Shown here: piece after piece, positions 2,459 through 52,511 of the stretch
How positions within the stretch are numbered: the first letter of the stretch is position 1
Layout: each line of letters opens with the position of its first letter
Origin: Candidatus Gastranaerophilales bacterium
Lineage (GTDB): Bacteria > Cyanobacteriota > Vampirovibrionia > Gastranaerophilales > Gastranaerophilaceae
Length of the DNA stretch: 64,000 nt
Assembly: GCA_947630045.1 (NCBI GenBank)
Contig: CANRGC010000002.1
Span: 1 to 64,000, forward strand
Direction of reading: 5' to 3'
Program-made: the position numbers and the translations under genes
The notes under the pieces: generated by a model
The model's database searches: none
Told to the model about the DNA's origin: nothing
What the model saw: the letters and a program-made list of their open reading frames with translations, nothing else

Positions 2459-2976
2459 GGTTTTGGTACCCCAGACATGAACATTGCCCGACCAGAATAA
2501 TTCCAATAGCGTATGTCTTGTTCAATAAAGAACCATTTAGCAACCTTTAGTATCAAATCTACAGGATATCCAGTATTAAAACTTAAATCTATTTCTGGGA
2601 TTTCTTCGCAATTATAAACATCTTCAATGAGTTTATATAATTTTGCATATTTCTCGGGTGATTCAGCTTTTTTAACTTGTAAGTCACTAAAAATATTATC
2701 ATGCGATGGATTATACTTTATTCTATTTGTTGTTGAAAAATTTATATTTTCGACATTAATAAGAAAATCAAAACCATTATGTAAATTTGCGGGTCTTTCT
2801 AAATAAATTCTATTGCCGTCATTTAATGTTTCAACGTAATATAAATATTTGGATTGATTATCACCATTGCCTGTTCCCGGCATTTCTTTAATAAATTCTG
2901 CAATAATTCTTTCTCTAACTTCATTTCTAGTACCAGAGTTTGAAAAGAATTTTTCTATTTTATTAGCTACAACCAT
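2455..2976 (-). CDS. Unknown protein encoded antisense between DpnII M and R genes
   Basis: A 173-aa protein I do not recognise. The start is supported by AAGGA just upstream of the ATG on the minus strand. No signal peptide, membrane segment or clear helix-turn-helix is visible. The C-terminus is aromatic-rich (a 'KWFFIEQDIRYWNYSGR' stretch) and ends in GVPKP. It lies tail-to-tail with dpnM and head-to-head with the nuclease gene, with only ~72 bp between its start and that of dpnII, so a shared divergent control region is possible. It may be an accessory or regulatory partner of the restriction system, but that rests only on position. Confidence 0.75.
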   Translation of the reverse strand: MVVANKIEKFFSNSGTRNEVRERIIAEFIKEMPGTGNGDNQSKYLYYVETLNDGNRIYLERPANLHNGFDFLINVENINFSTTNRIKYNPSHDNIFSDLQVKKAESPEKYAKLYKLIEDVYNCEEIPEIDLSFNTGYPVDLILKVAKWFFIEQDIRYWNYSGRAMFMSGVPKP

Positions 2977-3048
2977 ACATTCCTTTTCTTAACAAATAAC
3001 AATAAATTGCATGCTCATGCTATCATAAAAATATACAGGAGAATATAC

Positions 3049-3912
3049 ATGAAAAGAGCCTTTAAGGAATGGTTATCTACATTTAGACCTTGTATTGCAG
3101 ATTATTGCTACTATGTAGATTTTGAAAAAGTAAATAAAAATGTTGATGATATTAAAGTTGAATTAAATATTTTAAATTCGCTAGTTGGCTCAAAAAACAT
3201 TGAAAAAGATTTTGAAGATATTATCAAAAAATATCCTGAAACTCTAAAATGTATTCCATTGCTCTTGGCTGTTCGTTCTAACGAAATTTCTGTTACAGAT
3301 GCTGATGGAGAATACAAATTCTCTTTTAGGAAACAAAACTACAGCATAGATGATTATAAAATGTTTATGAAAAAGACTAAACTGTTTGATTTGTTGGAAA
3401 ATCATATTGTAAGCAATTTAGTAGATTATGCAACAGGTGTAGAAACAGGATTAGATAGTAACGGTCGAAAAAATCGTGGCGGACATTTGATGGAAAATCT
3501 TGTTGAAGATTACATCCAAAAAGCCGGATTTATTAAAGGTCAAAACTATTTCAAAGAAATGTATATCCACGAAATTGAAGAAAAATGGAATGTTAATCTT
3601 TCCGCTATTTCCAATCAAGGCAAAATGGAAAAACGCTTTGATTTTGTAATAAAAACAGACAATCAAATTTATGTAATCGAAACAAACTTCTATTCAAGTG
3701 GGGGTTCAAAACTTAATGAAACCGCAAGAAGTTATAAAACCCTAGCACAAGAAGTTACAACAATAGATGGTGTAACCTTTATTTGGTTTACTGATGGTTG
3801 TGGTTGGAATAGTGCAAGGCATAACTTAGAAGAAACTTTTGATGTTTTGGACACAGTATATAATATTCAAGATTTGGAAGATGGTATTTTGAATAAAATG
3901 AATTCTAAATAG
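3049..3912 (+). CDS. dpnB: Type II restriction endonuclease DpnII (GATC)
   Basis: Restriction endonuclease of 287 aa, the size of R.DpnII (288 aa). Its N-terminal 'EWLSTFRPCIADYCYYVDF' and the blocks 'VSNLVDYATGVETGLDSNG', 'KRFDFVIKTDNQIYVIE' and 'SKLNETARSYK' closely match remembered R.DpnII sequence. The D-x(n)-ExN core (FDFVIK...VIETNF) looks like the metal-binding nuclease site. It cuts unmethylated GATC. I chose ATG 3049, preceded by CAGGAG, over the upstream in-frame ATG at 3007 because family similarity begins there. It is separated from the methyltransferases by an antisense gene and so must have its own promoter, unlike the compact pneumococcal operon. Confidence 0.95.
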   Translation: MKRAFKEWLSTFRPCIADYCYYVDFEKVNKNVDDIKVELNILNSLVGSKNIEKDFEDIIKKYPETLKCIPLLLAVRSNEISVTDADGEYKFSFRKQNYSIDDYKMFMKKTKLFDLLENHIVSNLVDYATGVETGLDSNGRKNRGGHLMENLVEDYIQKAGFIKGQNYFKEMYIHEIEEKWNVNLSAISNQGKMEKRFDFVIKTDNQIYVIETNFYSSGGSKLNETARSYKTLAQEVTTIDGVTFIWFTDGCGWNSARHNLEETFDVLDTVYNIQDLEDGILNKMNSK

Positions 3913-35185: not shown

Positions 35186-36253
35186 TTACTCTTTATCTTT
35201 AAGCCCAAGACCGATTCTGTGTTCTTGAGGAGTAAATTTCTTGATTACAACTTCAATTTCTTCACCGATAGTAAACATGTTATTTAAGTTTGCATGTTCT
35301 TCCGATACTTCACTTGAAGGTAACAAAGCTTCAACTCCGGGGTAAATATTTATAAATACGCCGAAAGAAGTAATTTTGTTAACTGTTCCTTTAACAACAT
35401 CACCTTCTTTTAACTTATCCGCAATTTCATCCCAAGGGTTTGCGCCCATTCTTTTAAGAGATAAAGAAATTCTTTTGAGTTCTTCGTCAATTTTAATGAT
35501 TTTAACTTCAATTTTTTGACCGAGAGAAACAACGTCTGACGGGTGTTTAATTCTTTCCCAAGAAATTTCCGAAATCGGAAGAAGTCCGTCAATGCCTTCA
35601 ATGTCAACAAAAGCGCCAAAATCAGCAATTCTGACAATTTCGCCTTCAACAACCTGATCAACGGCAAGTCTTGAAATAACTTCATCCGCAACCATTTCTC
35701 TTTGTTGAGTATAAACCTGTCTTTGAGAAAGAATGAGTTTATTTCTTTTCGGGTCAACTTCTAAAATTTTAATTTCAATTTCCTGACCGATTTGATTTTC
35801 AGCCGGTGTTCCCGTTCTTAATTGGCTTGAGGGGATAAATCCTCTTAAGCCTTCGATTTCAGCGATTAAGCCGCCTTTAACCGAAGATATAATTTTTGCC
35901 ATTGCATTTTCGTTGTTATTTTTAATTTCGGCAAGTTTTGCCCAACTTTGTGCGCAAGCCAATTTTCTTAAAGATAATGTTGCAACTTCATCATCTTCTT
36001 CGTCTTTCATAACGTAAAACTCTTTTTCTTCCCAGAGTTTAACGATATCATCGGGGTTTTGTTCCGAAAAGTTTGTGACTTCTCTGTTCGGAAGAAAAGC
36101 CTCTTGTTTTGCGCCGATATCAACAAGGTAGCCGTCTTTTTCTTTTTTTACGACAACCCCTTTAACAACGTCTGCAACGTTTAATTTGTAGGTGTAGCTG
36201 TCAGAAAGCATTTTTTCAAATTCTTCGGCTGACATCATTTCTTTTGTTTCCAT
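35186..36253 (-). CDS. rpsA: S1 RNA-binding protein with four S1 domains (ribosomal protein S1-like)
   Basis: A 355-aa protein of four S1 (OB-fold) domains at about residues 20-80, 105-170, 195-265 and 280-350. Domains 3 and 4 are the most canonical ('VEGEIVRIADFGAFVDIEGI', 'VKGTVNKITSFGVFINIYPG'). Firmicutes and cyanobacterial S1 proteins have three to four such domains, whereas E. coli S1 has six. It probably aids mRNA binding to the ribosome or acts as an RNA chaperone. It starts 2 nt after the ispH stop codon, echoing the IspH-S1 fusion protein found in clostridia. Confidence 0.92.
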   Translation of the reverse strand: METKEMMSAEEFEKMLSDSYTYKLNVADVVKGVVVKKEKDGYLVDIGAKQEAFLPNREVTNFSEQNPDDIVKLWEEKEFYVMKDEEDDEVATLSLRKLACAQSWAKLAEIKNNNENAMAKIISSVKGGLIAEIEGLRGFIPSSQLRTGTPAENQIGQEIEIKILEVDPKRNKLILSQRQVYTQQREMVADEVISRLAVDQVVEGEIVRIADFGAFVDIEGIDGLLPISEISWERIKHPSDVVSLGQKIEVKIIKIDEELKRISLSLKRMGANPWDEIADKLKEGDVVKGTVNKITSFGVFINIYPGVEALLPSSEVSEEHANLNNMFTIGEEIEVVIKKFTPQEHRIGLGLKDKE

Positions 36254-36255
36254 TT

Positions 36256-37146
36256 TTATTTTGTCCTTTCTATATAATTTTTTATTTCATTAATTATGTA
36301 ATCGGGGGTGGAAGCGCCCGCCGTTATTCCGATTTCTTTAGAATTTTTGATTAATTCTTCATAATTTTTTAATTCCAAAGCCGATTCTATGTGAATTGTT
36401 TTTGTAATTTTAGATAAAATTTCGGCAAGATGAGTTGTATTTGCGCTTTTTTTCGAGCCGGCAACAACCATTAAATCTTTAATCTCAGCCATTTTTTTTG
36501 CTTCGTTTTGCCTCATTGATGTTGAACGGCAAATCGTATTTGCAATTTTTATATCGGGAACAATTGAGAGAAGATAATTTACCGTTTCTTTCAAAAATTC
36601 CAGCTTTTGAGTTGTCTGAATTACAAGCCCGACTTTTTCTTGAGATTTAATTAAGTCAGAGTTTTGAATAAGTTCGTCTAAATTGTTGATAACAAGAACT
36701 CTTTCTTTTGAATATTTTTTGGCATTTGATTGAATTGCAACAACTTCGGGATGTTCCTGTTTTCCCAAAATTAAAAGAAAATATCCTTCTTTTACAAGAG
36801 AAACGGCCTTATCCTGAACTTTTTTAACGTCAGGACATGTCATATCTATCACTTCGTAACCCATTTTTTTAATTTTATCAATTAAATCAACGCTTGCGCC
36901 GTGGCTTCTGATTACGCAAATTGAATTTTCGGGCGCAGGATCAAAGAGCTTATCGACCGTTTTAATGCCAAGAGCTTCTAATTCCTCTATAACAAAGGAA
37001 TTGTGAATTAATTCGCCCAAAACAAAAATATTTTTATCGGGATATTCTTTTTTTAATTTTTTTGTTGTTTCAACGGCTCTTTTAACACCGTAGCAAAAGC
37101 CCGAAAGTCTTGAGATTTCAATATTTTTAGCCGATTGACCGCTGAT
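36256..37146 (-). CDS. ispH: 4-hydroxy-3-methylbut-2-enyl diphosphate reductase, non-canonical start
   Basis: The last enzyme of the MEP isoprenoid pathway, a 4Fe-4S reductase giving IPP and DMAPP. The open frame runs from 37173 and encodes the first cluster cysteine in 'SRLSGFCYGVKRAVETTKKL', upstream of the TTG at 37020. The other cysteines are in 'IDMTCPDVKKV' and 'IANTICRSTSMRQ'. There is no ATG, GTG or TTG between the in-frame TGA (37174-37176) and the codons for that motif. I place the start at ATC 37146 (296 aa), 9 nt after AAGAAGGGGG; ATT 37122 (288 aa) is also possible. A perfect 6-bp hairpin (37141-37156) overlaps this site. It supplies isoprenoid to UppS. Confidence 0.85.
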   Translation of the reverse strand: MSGQSAKNIEISRLSGFCYGVKRAVETTKKLKKEYPDKNIFVLGELIHNSFVIEELEALGIKTVDKLFDPAPENSICVIRSHGASVDLIDKIKKMGYEVIDMTCPDVKKVQDKAVSLVKEGYFLLILGKQEHPEVVAIQSNAKKYSKERVLVINNLDELIQNSDLIKSQEKVGLVIQTTQKLEFLKETVNYLLSIVPDIKIANTICRSTSMRQNEAKKMAEIKDLMVVAGSKKSANTTHLAEILSKITKTIHIESALELKNYEELIKNSKEIGITAGASTPDYIINEIKNYIERTK

Positions 37147-37239
37147 AAAAATCAGCCCCCTTCTTAAATAGAGTCAAAGAAAATCTTTGCTTATTTCATT
37201 TAAACACAGACATTTTTTATATACAACTCTTTGTTTTAT

Positions 37240-38640
37240 TTAAGCGCCATATTTTTTTATTAACTTGGGCAAATTTTTATTAACTTCCAAAAGTCCGGTA
37301 TATGTTACAAGCAAAACCAGATTTTCATTTTCGTTTAATTCTAAAATTGCATTTTCAAGGGAAAGAGAAACTTTCGGAGTATTGTCAAAAACTTCAAGCA
37401 AAGAAGGGTTAAAACCGGCATGCTTCAGCCTTAAAGCAATGTCATAAGACCTTGTTCCCGTTGTATAAATAACGTTTTGAAAATCTTTCAGCGCCTCAAA
37501 ATCAGCGTCCCAAAGCCATGAAACATCTCTGCCGTCAGCATAATTGTCGTTAACGGAAACAACCATTCTTGCATTTTTAAGGTTTTTTAACCCCCTTAAA
37601 ACTTCGCTTGCGCCCACGGGGTTTTTAATCAGATGAATGGTCAAGCTTCCGCCGTTATTGAGCTTAACTTTTTGATGACGCCCGAACACAGGTGAATATT
37701 CATTTAATGCGCTTTCAATAGAATTGGGCTCAACTCCTGAAATAAGAGCGCCCGTTATTGCGCCAAGAACGTTATAGGCGTTATATAAACCCGTTAAATT
37801 TGTTTGAAAAATATAACTTTTATCTTTATATCTGACATCGAGAATGTTTTTATCAGTCTGGACAATTACTCTTGCCGTAACATCCGGTGTTTGTCTTTTA
37901 AAGCCGCACCTGCAAAACCAATCTCCAAGCTGAGCGTAATATCTTTTGGAATATAAAATCTGTTCGTTGCAAGCGGGGCAATGAAGGCTTTCTGACGGGC
38001 TTTTTGAATTTCTTTCATAATTTCCCGTATAATCAACGGAAGTTATTCCGAAATAAATGAATTTATCTCTGTTGTAATTTAATTTTTGTGCAATTTCGCA
38101 AAGGGCGGGATCATCAGCGTTTAAAACGATTTTTATATCGGGGTTTAATTCAATTCCTTTTATTATTTTTTCCCTTGCAATGTCCATTTCGCCATATCTG
38201 TCCAGCTGGTCACGGAAAAGATTTGTCACAATTATATAATCAAAGACAAATTTGTTTGAAATTCTTGAAAAATATGCTTCATCACACTCTAAAACCACTC
38301 CTGCGCCTTCAATTCCGCCTGTTTTTTGCCACCTTGAATAAAGACTTTTTGAAATTGCGGTTACAATTCCGTTGGGCATATTTGCGCCGAGTTTGTTATT
38401 TATGATTTGCATTCCGCCTTTGGTTAAAATTTCGGTCAAAACAGTTGATGTGGTGGTTTTTCCGTTTGTTCCCGTTATTGCAAAACGTGGGTGGTCTATA
38501 TAATTGTTGCAGTCTTTAAGAAAGGAAGGATAATATTTCTGAACAATTTTTCCGGGGAAACTTGTTGCCTCAAAATTCAAAAAATTTAAAGTTTTTGATG
38601 TTATATTTGAAATTTTAAGAGCATTTTTAAATTTCGACAT
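37240..38640 (-). CDS. murT: Lipid II isoglutaminyl synthase subunit MurT (Mur ligase family)
   Basis: A 466-aa Mur-ligase-family enzyme. The P-loop is ITGTNGKTTTSTVL near residue 58; a zinc ribbon near 205-235 has four cysteines (HCPACNEQI and FCRCGFKR), diagnostic of MurT; the C-terminal DUF1727 region ends 'LLVTYTGLLEVNKNLPKLIK'. MurT works with the glutaminase GatD to amidate the D-Glu of lipid II. No gatD is adjacent, unlike most murT-gatD operons. GGAAGG before ATG 38640 supports the start over the longer frame. Cyanophycin synthetase and FolC are excluded by the zinc ribbon. Confidence 0.9.
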   Translation of the reverse strand: MSKFKNALKISNITSKTLNFLNFEATSFPGKIVQKYYPSFLKDCNNYIDHPRFAITGTNGKTTTSTVLTEILTKGGMQIINNKLGANMPNGIVTAISKSLYSRWQKTGGIEGAGVVLECDEAYFSRISNKFVFDYIIVTNLFRDQLDRYGEMDIAREKIIKGIELNPDIKIVLNADDPALCEIAQKLNYNRDKFIYFGITSVDYTGNYERNSKSPSESLHCPACNEQILYSKRYYAQLGDWFCRCGFKRQTPDVTARVIVQTDKNILDVRYKDKSYIFQTNLTGLYNAYNVLGAITGALISGVEPNSIESALNEYSPVFGRHQKVKLNNGGSLTIHLIKNPVGASEVLRGLKNLKNARMVVSVNDNYADGRDVSWLWDADFEALKDFQNVIYTTGTRSYDIALRLKHAGFNPSLLEVFDNTPKVSLSLENAILELNENENLVLLVTYTGLLEVNKNLPKLIKKYGA

Positions 38641-38693
38641 AAATCCTTCCCATTTACGATTAAAATTTGATAAAATCAATTATAATACATTAT

Positions 38694-50963: not shown

Positions 50964-50975
50964 GGAGAAACAAAG

Positions 50976-52511
50976 TTGTCTTTAAAAGACAGGTTAAATT
51001 CCAATAACAACAATAATGAAGACAAAAACAACTCCGGCGGTCTTGTTAACTATTCTCTAACGCCATTGAACGATGAGCTTAGAGAGTTAAAAGAACAGCT
51101 TCATGTTTTATTGATTGAAAAAGTTAACACCACTCCAAATTGGGGTACATATTCGGATGACGAACAAAAGGCTTTAATAAGACAATTTATAGATTTTCAA
51201 ATTGCAAGTAATTTCAGACAGGTTCCCATTAATAAGTCTGAAAAGGCACGCCTTATTAAAGAAATTATTCAGGATACTAAAGGTTTCGGACCTTTGGACC
51301 CTTTGCTTGAAGACCCTAACATAAGTGATATTCTTGTAAACGGGGCGGAAAATGTCTATATTGAAAAAAACGGAAAACTCTATAAAACATCCGTCGTTTT
51401 CAAAGATAACGAACATTTAAAAAACATAATTGAAAGAATAGTTTCAAGAGTCGGCAGAAGAATTGATGAAAAATCGCCTATGGTGGACGCCAGACTTCCT
51501 GACGGAAGCCGTGTTAACGCAATTATTCCGCCGCTTGCAATAGACGGACCCTCTCTTTCAATCAGACGTTTTAAAAAAGACGCCGGCACAATTGAAGCCC
51601 TTTTGAAATGGGGCTCTATGAGCAAAGAAATCGCCGATATTTTAATGGCGGCAGTTGTTGCAAGATGTAATATAATTATCTCAGGTGGTACCGGCGCAGG
51701 TAAAACAACCCTTTTAAACAGTTTATCAGCCGCAATTCCGCACAACGAAAGAATTATCACAATCGAAGATTCAGCCGAATTGAACCTCAACCAAGACCAT
51801 GTTGTAAGGCTTGAAACAAGACCGAAAAACATTGAGGGCGAAGGGGAAATTTCGACAAGAGATTTGGTTATTAACGCTTTGCGTATGCGCCCTGACAGAA
51901 TAGTAATCGGTGAATGTCGTGGCGCCGAAACCCTTGATATGCTTCAGGCTATGAACACGGGTCATGACGGCTCATTAACTACGCTTCACGCCAATTCTCC
52001 CCGTGACGCTCTTTCAAGGCTTGAAACAATGGTTTTATACGCCGGTGTTGACCTTCCGAGTAAAAATATAAGACAACAAATTGCATCTGCCATAAACATA
52101 ATTATTCAGGTTTCAAGACTTCAAGACGGCTCAAGAAAACTGACAAGAGTGTCTGAAATTACGGGCATGGAAGAATCTGTCATAACCATGCAAGATATTT
52201 TTGTTTTTCAACAAACTGGTTTAAGCGATAATGTTGTTATGGGAACGCATGTTTCAACGGGAGTTCGCCCCGAATTTTTAAAGAAAATCGAAAGAGTCGG
52301 AATTGAAGTCAACTCAAGAATTTTTGATTCTTCATATAAACATTCCTATTTTGTTAAAACATCAAATGAAAATATAATTACAAAATCTCGAATAATTCAA
52401 AACGAAAAAAATGACACAAGAAAAATAGACTCTGTAAGGGAAGCAATTCAAAGCAGAAATCAAAATGAGCTTGATATTCTAAGAAGGCTGAAAAGAAATG
52501 AGCGCAATTAA
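50976..52511 (+). CDS. cpaF: Tad secretion ATPase CpaF/TadA
   Basis: A 511-aa type II/IV secretion ATPase. Walker A is ISGGTGAGKTTLLN near residue 230, followed by 'ERIITIEDSAELNL', the His box 'DGSLTTLHANSPRDALSRLE' and 'RMRPDRIVIGECRGAE'. It powers pilus assembly. The initiation codon is TTG, placed 8 nt after AAGGAG; no in-frame ATG gives an equally good context. The C-terminal ~90 residues extend beyond the usual ATPase core and are basic. It overlaps tadB by 14 nt. Confidence 0.95.
   Translation: MSLKDRLNSNNNNNEDKNNSGGLVNYSLTPLNDELRELKEQLHVLLIEKVNTTPNWGTYSDDEQKALIRQFIDFQIASNFRQVPINKSEKARLIKEIIQDTKGFGPLDPLLEDPNISDILVNGAENVYIEKNGKLYKTSVVFKDNEHLKNIIERIVSRVGRRIDEKSPMVDARLPDGSRVNAIIPPLAIDGPSLSIRRFKKDAGTIEALLKWGSMSKEIADILMAAVVARCNIIISGGTGAGKTTLLNSLSAAIPHNERIITIEDSAELNLNQDHVVRLETRPKNIEGEGEISTRDLVINALRMRPDRIVIGECRGAETLDMLQAMNTGHDGSLTTLHANSPRDALSRLETMVLYAGVDLPSKNIRQQIASAINIIIQVSRLQDGSRKLTRVSEITGMEESVITMQDIFVFQQTGLSDNVVMGTHVSTGVRPEFLKKIERVGIEVNSRIFDSSYKHSYFVKTSNENIITKSRIIQNEKNDTRKIDSVREAIQSRNQNELDILRRLKRNERN

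Follow-up and report, generated by a model that had tools for sequence, protein, structure and literature searches.

The ispH gene of a Gastranaerophilales genome most likely starts at AUC, and its relatives seldom use AUG

Results

The ispH locus

The window analysed here is a stretch of 64,000 nucleotides from a Candidatus Gastranaerophilales genome. Its reverse strand carries a gene for IspH (HMBPP reductase), identified with the TIGR00216 equivalog model (245.4 bits against a cut-off of 187.85), with an rpsA-like gene for S1 directly downstream (table 1). S1 adjoins ispH in all 30 family loci and in each of the 15 loci checked in other families, which makes 45 of 45 in the order, and from this adjacency a single ispH–rpsA operon, transcribed as one mRNA, is probable. 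A MurT-like gene (37240-38679, reverse strand) precedes ispH in the window; no MurT match was present in the other 29 family loci (L002-L030) within the flanks examined.

Table 1. Features of the ispH locus, in coordinates of the window (SD, Shine-Dalgarno).
Feature	Position	Strand	Basis
Promoter TTGTAT-17-TTAAAT, probable	37198..37226	-	Read by eye in relatives' sequences
5' stem-loop AG-CAAAGA-TTT-TCTTTG-A-CT, bulged A	37172..37191	-	Conserved position in family leaders
Extended SD AGAAGGGGG	37156..37164	-	Pairing score 19, anti-SD from G005
Hairpin GCTGAT-TTTT-ATCAGC over start codon	37141..37156	-	0/100 shuffles as good in window
ATC, proposed ispH start codon	37144..37146	-	8 nt from anti-SD register
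ispH (HMBPP reductase), proposed extent ATC to stop	36256..37146	-	TIGR00216, 3dnf alignment, codon-blind start call
S1 (rpsA-like) gene, directly downstream of ispH	35186..36253	-	ATG and strong SD AGAAAGGA

The ispH frame lacks a canonical start ahead of its first cysteine motif

The ispH frame is open back to an in-frame TGA (37176-37174), and between this stop and the GFCYGVKRA motif, which begins at 37101, it contains no ATG, GTG or TTG, an infC-like arrangement. The earliest canonical start in frame is TTG 37020. Initiation there would remove a segment that matches the solved IspH structure 3dnf (E 3e-55) from 3dnf residue 4 and includes the cysteine of the GFC motif, presumably a ligand of the Fe-S cluster. 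The initial annotation had claimed both that no canonical start precedes the first Fe-S cysteine motif and that a start at TTG 37020 would delete the cysteine; the first was confirmed, with the positions of the TGA and the TTG, and the alignment to 3dnf bears out the second. Near-cognate codons do lie in frame ahead of the motif (CTG 37155, ATT 37152, ATC 37146, ATT 37122 and ATC 37116). From 37196 to 37100, ATG and GTG are absent from all frames, and the two TTG codons present (37177 and 37121) are both outside the ispH frame; a frameshift from a leader ATG was rejected, there being no such ATG in any frame. We compared how far into the open frame the first canonical start falls in the 48 non-overlapping ORFs of 150 codons or more in the window: in 47 the distance is 0-21 codons, and for ispH it is 51, which exceeds chance expectation. 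Gene callers limited to the three canonical codons would trim the first cysteine motif off IspH.

Two further ORFs, both on the forward strand, may be recorded here. The long ORF at 50964-52511 has an early TTG (codon 4) behind a strong SD (AAGGAG at 7 nt) and its first ATG at codon 172, and is probably a genuine UUG gene. At 2944-3912 the first canonical start is a TTG 21 codons in, and there is an ATT at codon 6 with a weak SD.

A codon-blind caller selects AUC

Start sites were called from SD pairing, with codon identity ignored. The caller scored in-frame ATG, GTG, TTG, CTG, ATT, ATC and ATA codons located 9-35 codons before GFC by the upstream pairing to the anti-SD tail at 5-11 nt. The anti-SD of the genus, GGATCACCTCCTTTCT, was taken from the genus mate G005 (L185); 16S was present in 2 of 12 genomes and was not found in G000. 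For the window the caller picks ATC 37146, with a score of 19 at a spacing of 8 nt, and this pairing score of AGAAGGGGG is the top value of the 48 window ORFs, shared with the S1 gene. Nine nucleotides separate the last G of AGAAGGGGG from the ATC, where the initial annotation had placed this purine-rich sequence. It had further considered an ATC or ATT start likely; the codon-blind call supports ATC 37146 and not ATT. Both CTG 37155 (spacing -1) and ATT 37152 (spacing 2) were rejected, since they lie too near the SD and have none at a usable distance. We conclude that translation of ispH most likely starts at AUC 37146.

When the caller was applied to the adjoining S1 genes it returned ATG in 29 of 30, the remaining one being an ATA tied with ATG. 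On infC (n = 40) the calls were ATT (16), ATA (14), ATC (9) and TTG (1), so that AUA, AUU and AUC make up 39 of 40; the single TTG belongs to G057, which is not a member of the order. infC of the window genome and its genus is called at ATA or ATC, and the window infC has no canonical in-frame start ahead of its conserved region; some infC loci do carry a canonical codon in frame. An SD score of at least 12 is reached by 15 of the 48 window ORFs, with ATG called in 13, TTG in one and ATC in one, namely ispH; the other 33 score below 12. Among outgroup loci, 22 were scored over a wide range; 21 of them have an in-frame ATG, and the caller ranks ATG first in four (five with a tie). This result and the low scores limit the caller's usefulness to genes with a strong SD and a well-placed N-terminus. 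In these genomes, then, infC has near-cognate starts and ispH resembles it, as a second infC-like gene, whereas near-cognate starts are not seen in the other genes with a clear SD. An analogy with infC had already been drawn in the initial annotation, and it has gained in substance: infC of the same genome and genus uses the same class of near-cognate codons, and ispH equally avoids AUG.

Start codons of ispH in relatives

ispH was detected in 55 of 58 relatives searched and in 359 of 383 family genomes searched. We compared N-termini in 99 loci of the order, 80 in the family of the window (f1) and 19 in six other families, with L031 (Elusimicrobia) and L134 (G057, another order) excluded. Within codons 9-26 before GFC, ATG, GTG and TTG are all absent from 36 of the 99 loci, and an in-frame ATG is present in eight. 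The four ATGs in f1 lie inside the leader stem-loop described below (L006 and L056), in the SD (L054) and in an inserted segment (L060). Calls for the 80 f1 loci were TTG 38, ATT 11, ATA 10, CTG 7, ATC 6 and GTG 1, with 7 unsupported; for the 19 loci of the other families they were CTG 12, ATT 2 and ATC 1, with 4 unsupported. Calls for L049, L056, L125, L128 and L132 are doubtful or tied. CUG therefore prevails in the other families of the order, and UUG or AUA/AUU/AUC in f1, and ATG accounts for none of the 88 SD-supported ispH calls. UUG is a normal minor start codon, so the calls in most of f1 show no more than ‘not AUG’. In the genus of the window (g1), ATC, ATT or ATA is called in all eight members with an N-terminus, each at 8 nt; in the ninth genome, G004, the ispH N-terminus is missing from its contig. 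The possibility that orthologues would all have a normal start at this position, raised at the outset, is contradicted by the orthologues that lack an ATG there.

The ATGs of loci L119, L129 and L131 in family f6 look like true AUG starts. None of the three has a call supported by an SD, a pattern resembling a trade-off between start codon and SD strength. In L120 (G052, family f3) the ATG stands a few bases past a TATAAA-like box, TGGTATAAAA, and the locus looks like a leaderless ispH that has gone over to AUG. All four keep the adjacent S1, so the non-AUG trait is not obligatory, and S1 adjacency was rejected as the factor deciding between AUG and non-AUG starts within the order.

Evolution of the start codon

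A tree of 50 IspH proteins, built with a quick method and with start states set by hand for L010, L013, L054, L119, L120, L125 and L128 (no SD, weak score or tie), gives at least 11 start-codon changes, or 7 with AUA, AUU and AUC merged. One 15-row clade (SH-aLRT 97) takes in every ATA/ATT/ATC row (14) plus one TTG row; of the 13 rows from other families, two are ATG and the remainder CTG. CUG, UUG, AUA, AUU and AUC interchange among related lineages, so that selection seems to act against AUG and not for one codon. For comparison, the accessible part of PMC5622118 gives, for 2,468 UUG starts, 43 switches to AUG and none listed to AUU, and, for 61,358 ancestral AUG starts, two to CUG and one to AUU; at such rates, starts of this kind should be rare.

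Among 30 loci of the class outside the order, 21 of the 22 with a script-found motif have an in-frame ATG at most 75 codons away, and further class loci with an in-frame ATG are L142, L143, L144, L148 and L166. S1 lies beside ispH in five of the 30. Three S1-adjacent loci of family f15, in the same class and another order (L152, L158 and L160), have TTG or GTG only and no ATG, hinting that the non-AUG trait extends past the order. The family f9 loci with adjacent S1 have an SD-supported GTG plus an ATG (L163) and an SD-supported ATG (L169).

The ispH leader

The probable promoter takes the form TTGTAC-17-TTAAAT in genus mates; a consensus promoter scan of 37090-37400 reported none. A stretch that takes in the -10 box and the bases 5' of it, ATTGTACTAAAAAAATGTCCATGGTTAAATA, is highly conserved in g1 loci L002-L007, with small changes in L008, and may hold two divergent promoters.

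Directly after the probable promoter comes a 5' stem-loop, in outline A(C or G)-stem-A-(G or C)U though variants occur; in the window its bulge and 3' arm are overlapped by the in-frame TGA of ispH. A stem score of at least 5 at this position was found in 69 of 78 f1 leaders, L052 and L060 having no anchor for the count, against a mean of 25.7 for shuffled leaders (100 shuffles, maximum 34) and, with arms swapped between genera, of 20.3 (maximum 31). For 21 distinct close leaders, 94.4% of cells were paired against 74.1 in shuffles, 29 cells had a double change against 11.5, and the covariation score was 0.502 against 0.174 (0/500 in each case). The number of pairs with a double change (4 against 3.8) and of further pair types (11 against 10.3) did not exceed shuffles, so the covariation is mixed but mostly positive. 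A leader model, R1, had the ispH leader as its best match in all six genomes searched, where it was built from 22 leaders that include all six tested and scored 150 first-look candidates per genome. In G000 the leader scored 35.9 bits and the next match 23.1. R1 was rejected as a genome-wide element, given that other matches had E values of 0.047 or worse and the test leaders were also training leaders.

The initial annotation had described a second hairpin, over the start codon. In the window it is real and strong; its conservation across 73 loci is poor, with a mean stem of 4.34 against 3.73 in shuffles and 9 of 73 loci at or below 5/100 shuffles. As this is barely above shuffles, we retained it as a local feature only and rejected it as a conserved regulatory element. 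The 5' stem-loop is the better conserved of the two; it did not figure in the initial annotation, and neither did the spread of the non-AUG trait through the order or the CUG and UUG starts. The whole leader has ordinary fold stability (z -0.65), and a search of 36900-37500 with Rfam 15 left it unmatched, returning only CrcZ at 15.9 bits (gathering threshold 95) inside the coding region.

Discussion

Discrimination by IF3 against the near-cognate start of infC is established, and it permits autoregulation. We consider it likely that ispH starts at AUC 37146 behind a long SD and that this weak start throttles IspH below S1 in an IF3-sensitive manner, the functional part being one that we infer. 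The long SD AGAAGGGGG would hold the 30S subunit with AUC 37146 positioned at the P site; initiator tRNA could pair there at only two of three positions, and initiation would be inefficient. IF3 would discriminate against this start as it does for infC, and the long SD would compensate for the weak codon. IspH, as a low-demand Fe-S enzyme, would be kept well below the high-demand S1 made from the same mRNA: S1 has an AUG and a strong SD, so a weak ispH start would hold IspH below it. IspH output would also become sensitive to IF3 and to initiation capacity.

To our knowledge, documented cases of bacterial genes with a selected start other than AUG, GUG or UUG are few once infC is set aside. 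infC resembles ispH in keeping a near-cognate start across lineages together with a good SD, but its product, IF3, itself discriminates against the infC start, whereas IspH is a metabolic enzyme, and ispH, unlike infC, often has CUG and UUG. In the part of PMC13009471 consulted, Staphylococcus aureus cvfC1 (AUU) and ccpN (AUA) share with ispH a conserved non-canonical start and extended SD pairing, with reporter output below that from AUG; they encode a small protein and a regulator, unlike ispH, and the term ispH is absent from the main text of that paper. A title cited there describes Escherichia coli pcnB, another chromosomal gene apart from infC, as limited by AUU; its function differs from that of ispH. 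Closer in layout is Streptomyces sigR, whose GTC start is repressed by IF3 by experiment, according to the sections of PMC5472188 available: like ispH it is first of a gene pair, and its weak start reduces the amount of the first product, the second being made in excess, although the codon is GTC and the pair is sigma/anti-sigma. Exclusion of weak third-base pairs by IF3 in vitro is described in the excerpt of PMC10158994 that we drew on. Among the matches listed in open-licence papers, ispH with a non-AUG start was unreported, and the same phenomenon was likewise unreported among the matches listed for the ispH–rpsA operon, Gastranaerophilales start codons and the general IF3/non-canonical-start literature, again open-licence.

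The main rival to such a throttle is a feedback loop, in which the non-AUG start and the 5' stem-loop would expose ispH–rpsA to control by IF3, S1 or both, and S1, IF3 and isoprenoid supply would be co-adjusted. The codon class shared with infC of the same genomes, the S1 gene next to ispH at every locus in the order and the position-conserved stem-loop after the probable promoter are all consistent with it. With an AUG and a strong SD of its own, however, S1 need not come under control exerted at the ispH start, and the leader is without an Rfam family match. The autoregulated rpsA leader of gamma-proteobacteria, as presented in the available text of PMC10931766, sits before rpsA and has no canonical SD; the ispH leader does not conform to that description, having a strong SD and sitting before ispH. 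IspH-RPS1 fusion proteins, mostly in anaerobes as far as the accessible part of PMC4746011 goes, likewise link IspH to S1, whereas here the two are separate adjacent genes and S1 has its own AUG. We regard the feedback loop as possible but rather unlikely. The initial annotation had suggested control of isoprenoid flux through initiation; because ispH heads a pair with S1, a throttle on IspH or a loop with IF3 and S1 fits as well or better.

Alternatively, the strong SD could make the start codon matter little, with neutral drift among near-cognates. The frequent codon switches (at least 11 on the tree) and the strong SD in g1 are what such tolerance would produce, yet every codon used is one base from AUG and AUG itself never appears among the supported calls, and for S1, encoded on the same DNA, the caller picks AUG in nearly every locus. 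The switch rates in the part of PMC5622118 cited above favour return to AUG. Drift of this kind is, we believe, improbable.

A start at CTG 37155, giving an N-terminus three residues longer, would align with a GTG that is in frame in L005-L008, L032, L038 and L041. In the four g1 members among these (L005-L008) that GTG overlaps the SD register at a spacing of -1, as the CTG itself does. In genus g52 (5 of 5 loci read) translation from the aligned GTG would read TTT and stop at TAA, with ATA as the next codon; in L009 the GTG lies out of frame, and a TGA stands three codons before the ATC. Given the g52 stop directly before the ATA and the L009 TGA, no in-frame start farther upstream is possible in those loci. 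This makes the CTG a very improbable start. That an assembly error or pseudogene conceals a normal start, as the 29-contig draft might allow, has a negligible chance: the remainder of ispH is intact, and the separate assemblies of genus mates and other genera also have no AUG, so the hidden ATG that the initial annotation had thought of finds no counterpart in them.

Returning to AUC 37146 as a throttled start, it may belong to something larger. Tentatively, and with somewhat less conviction than we grant the feedback loop, the ispH–rpsA operon and infC could form an order-wide initiation regulon, in which near-cognate starts and the 5' stem-loop would let IF3/S1 set IspH and perhaps S1. If true, isoprenoid supply would be coupled to initiation capacity. 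An essential Fe-S enzyme whose gene seldom starts at AUG across an order, with repeated codon switching, suggests that selection sets expression through start-codon strength, and ispH turns the question of which genes are tuned by IF3 into a testable one.
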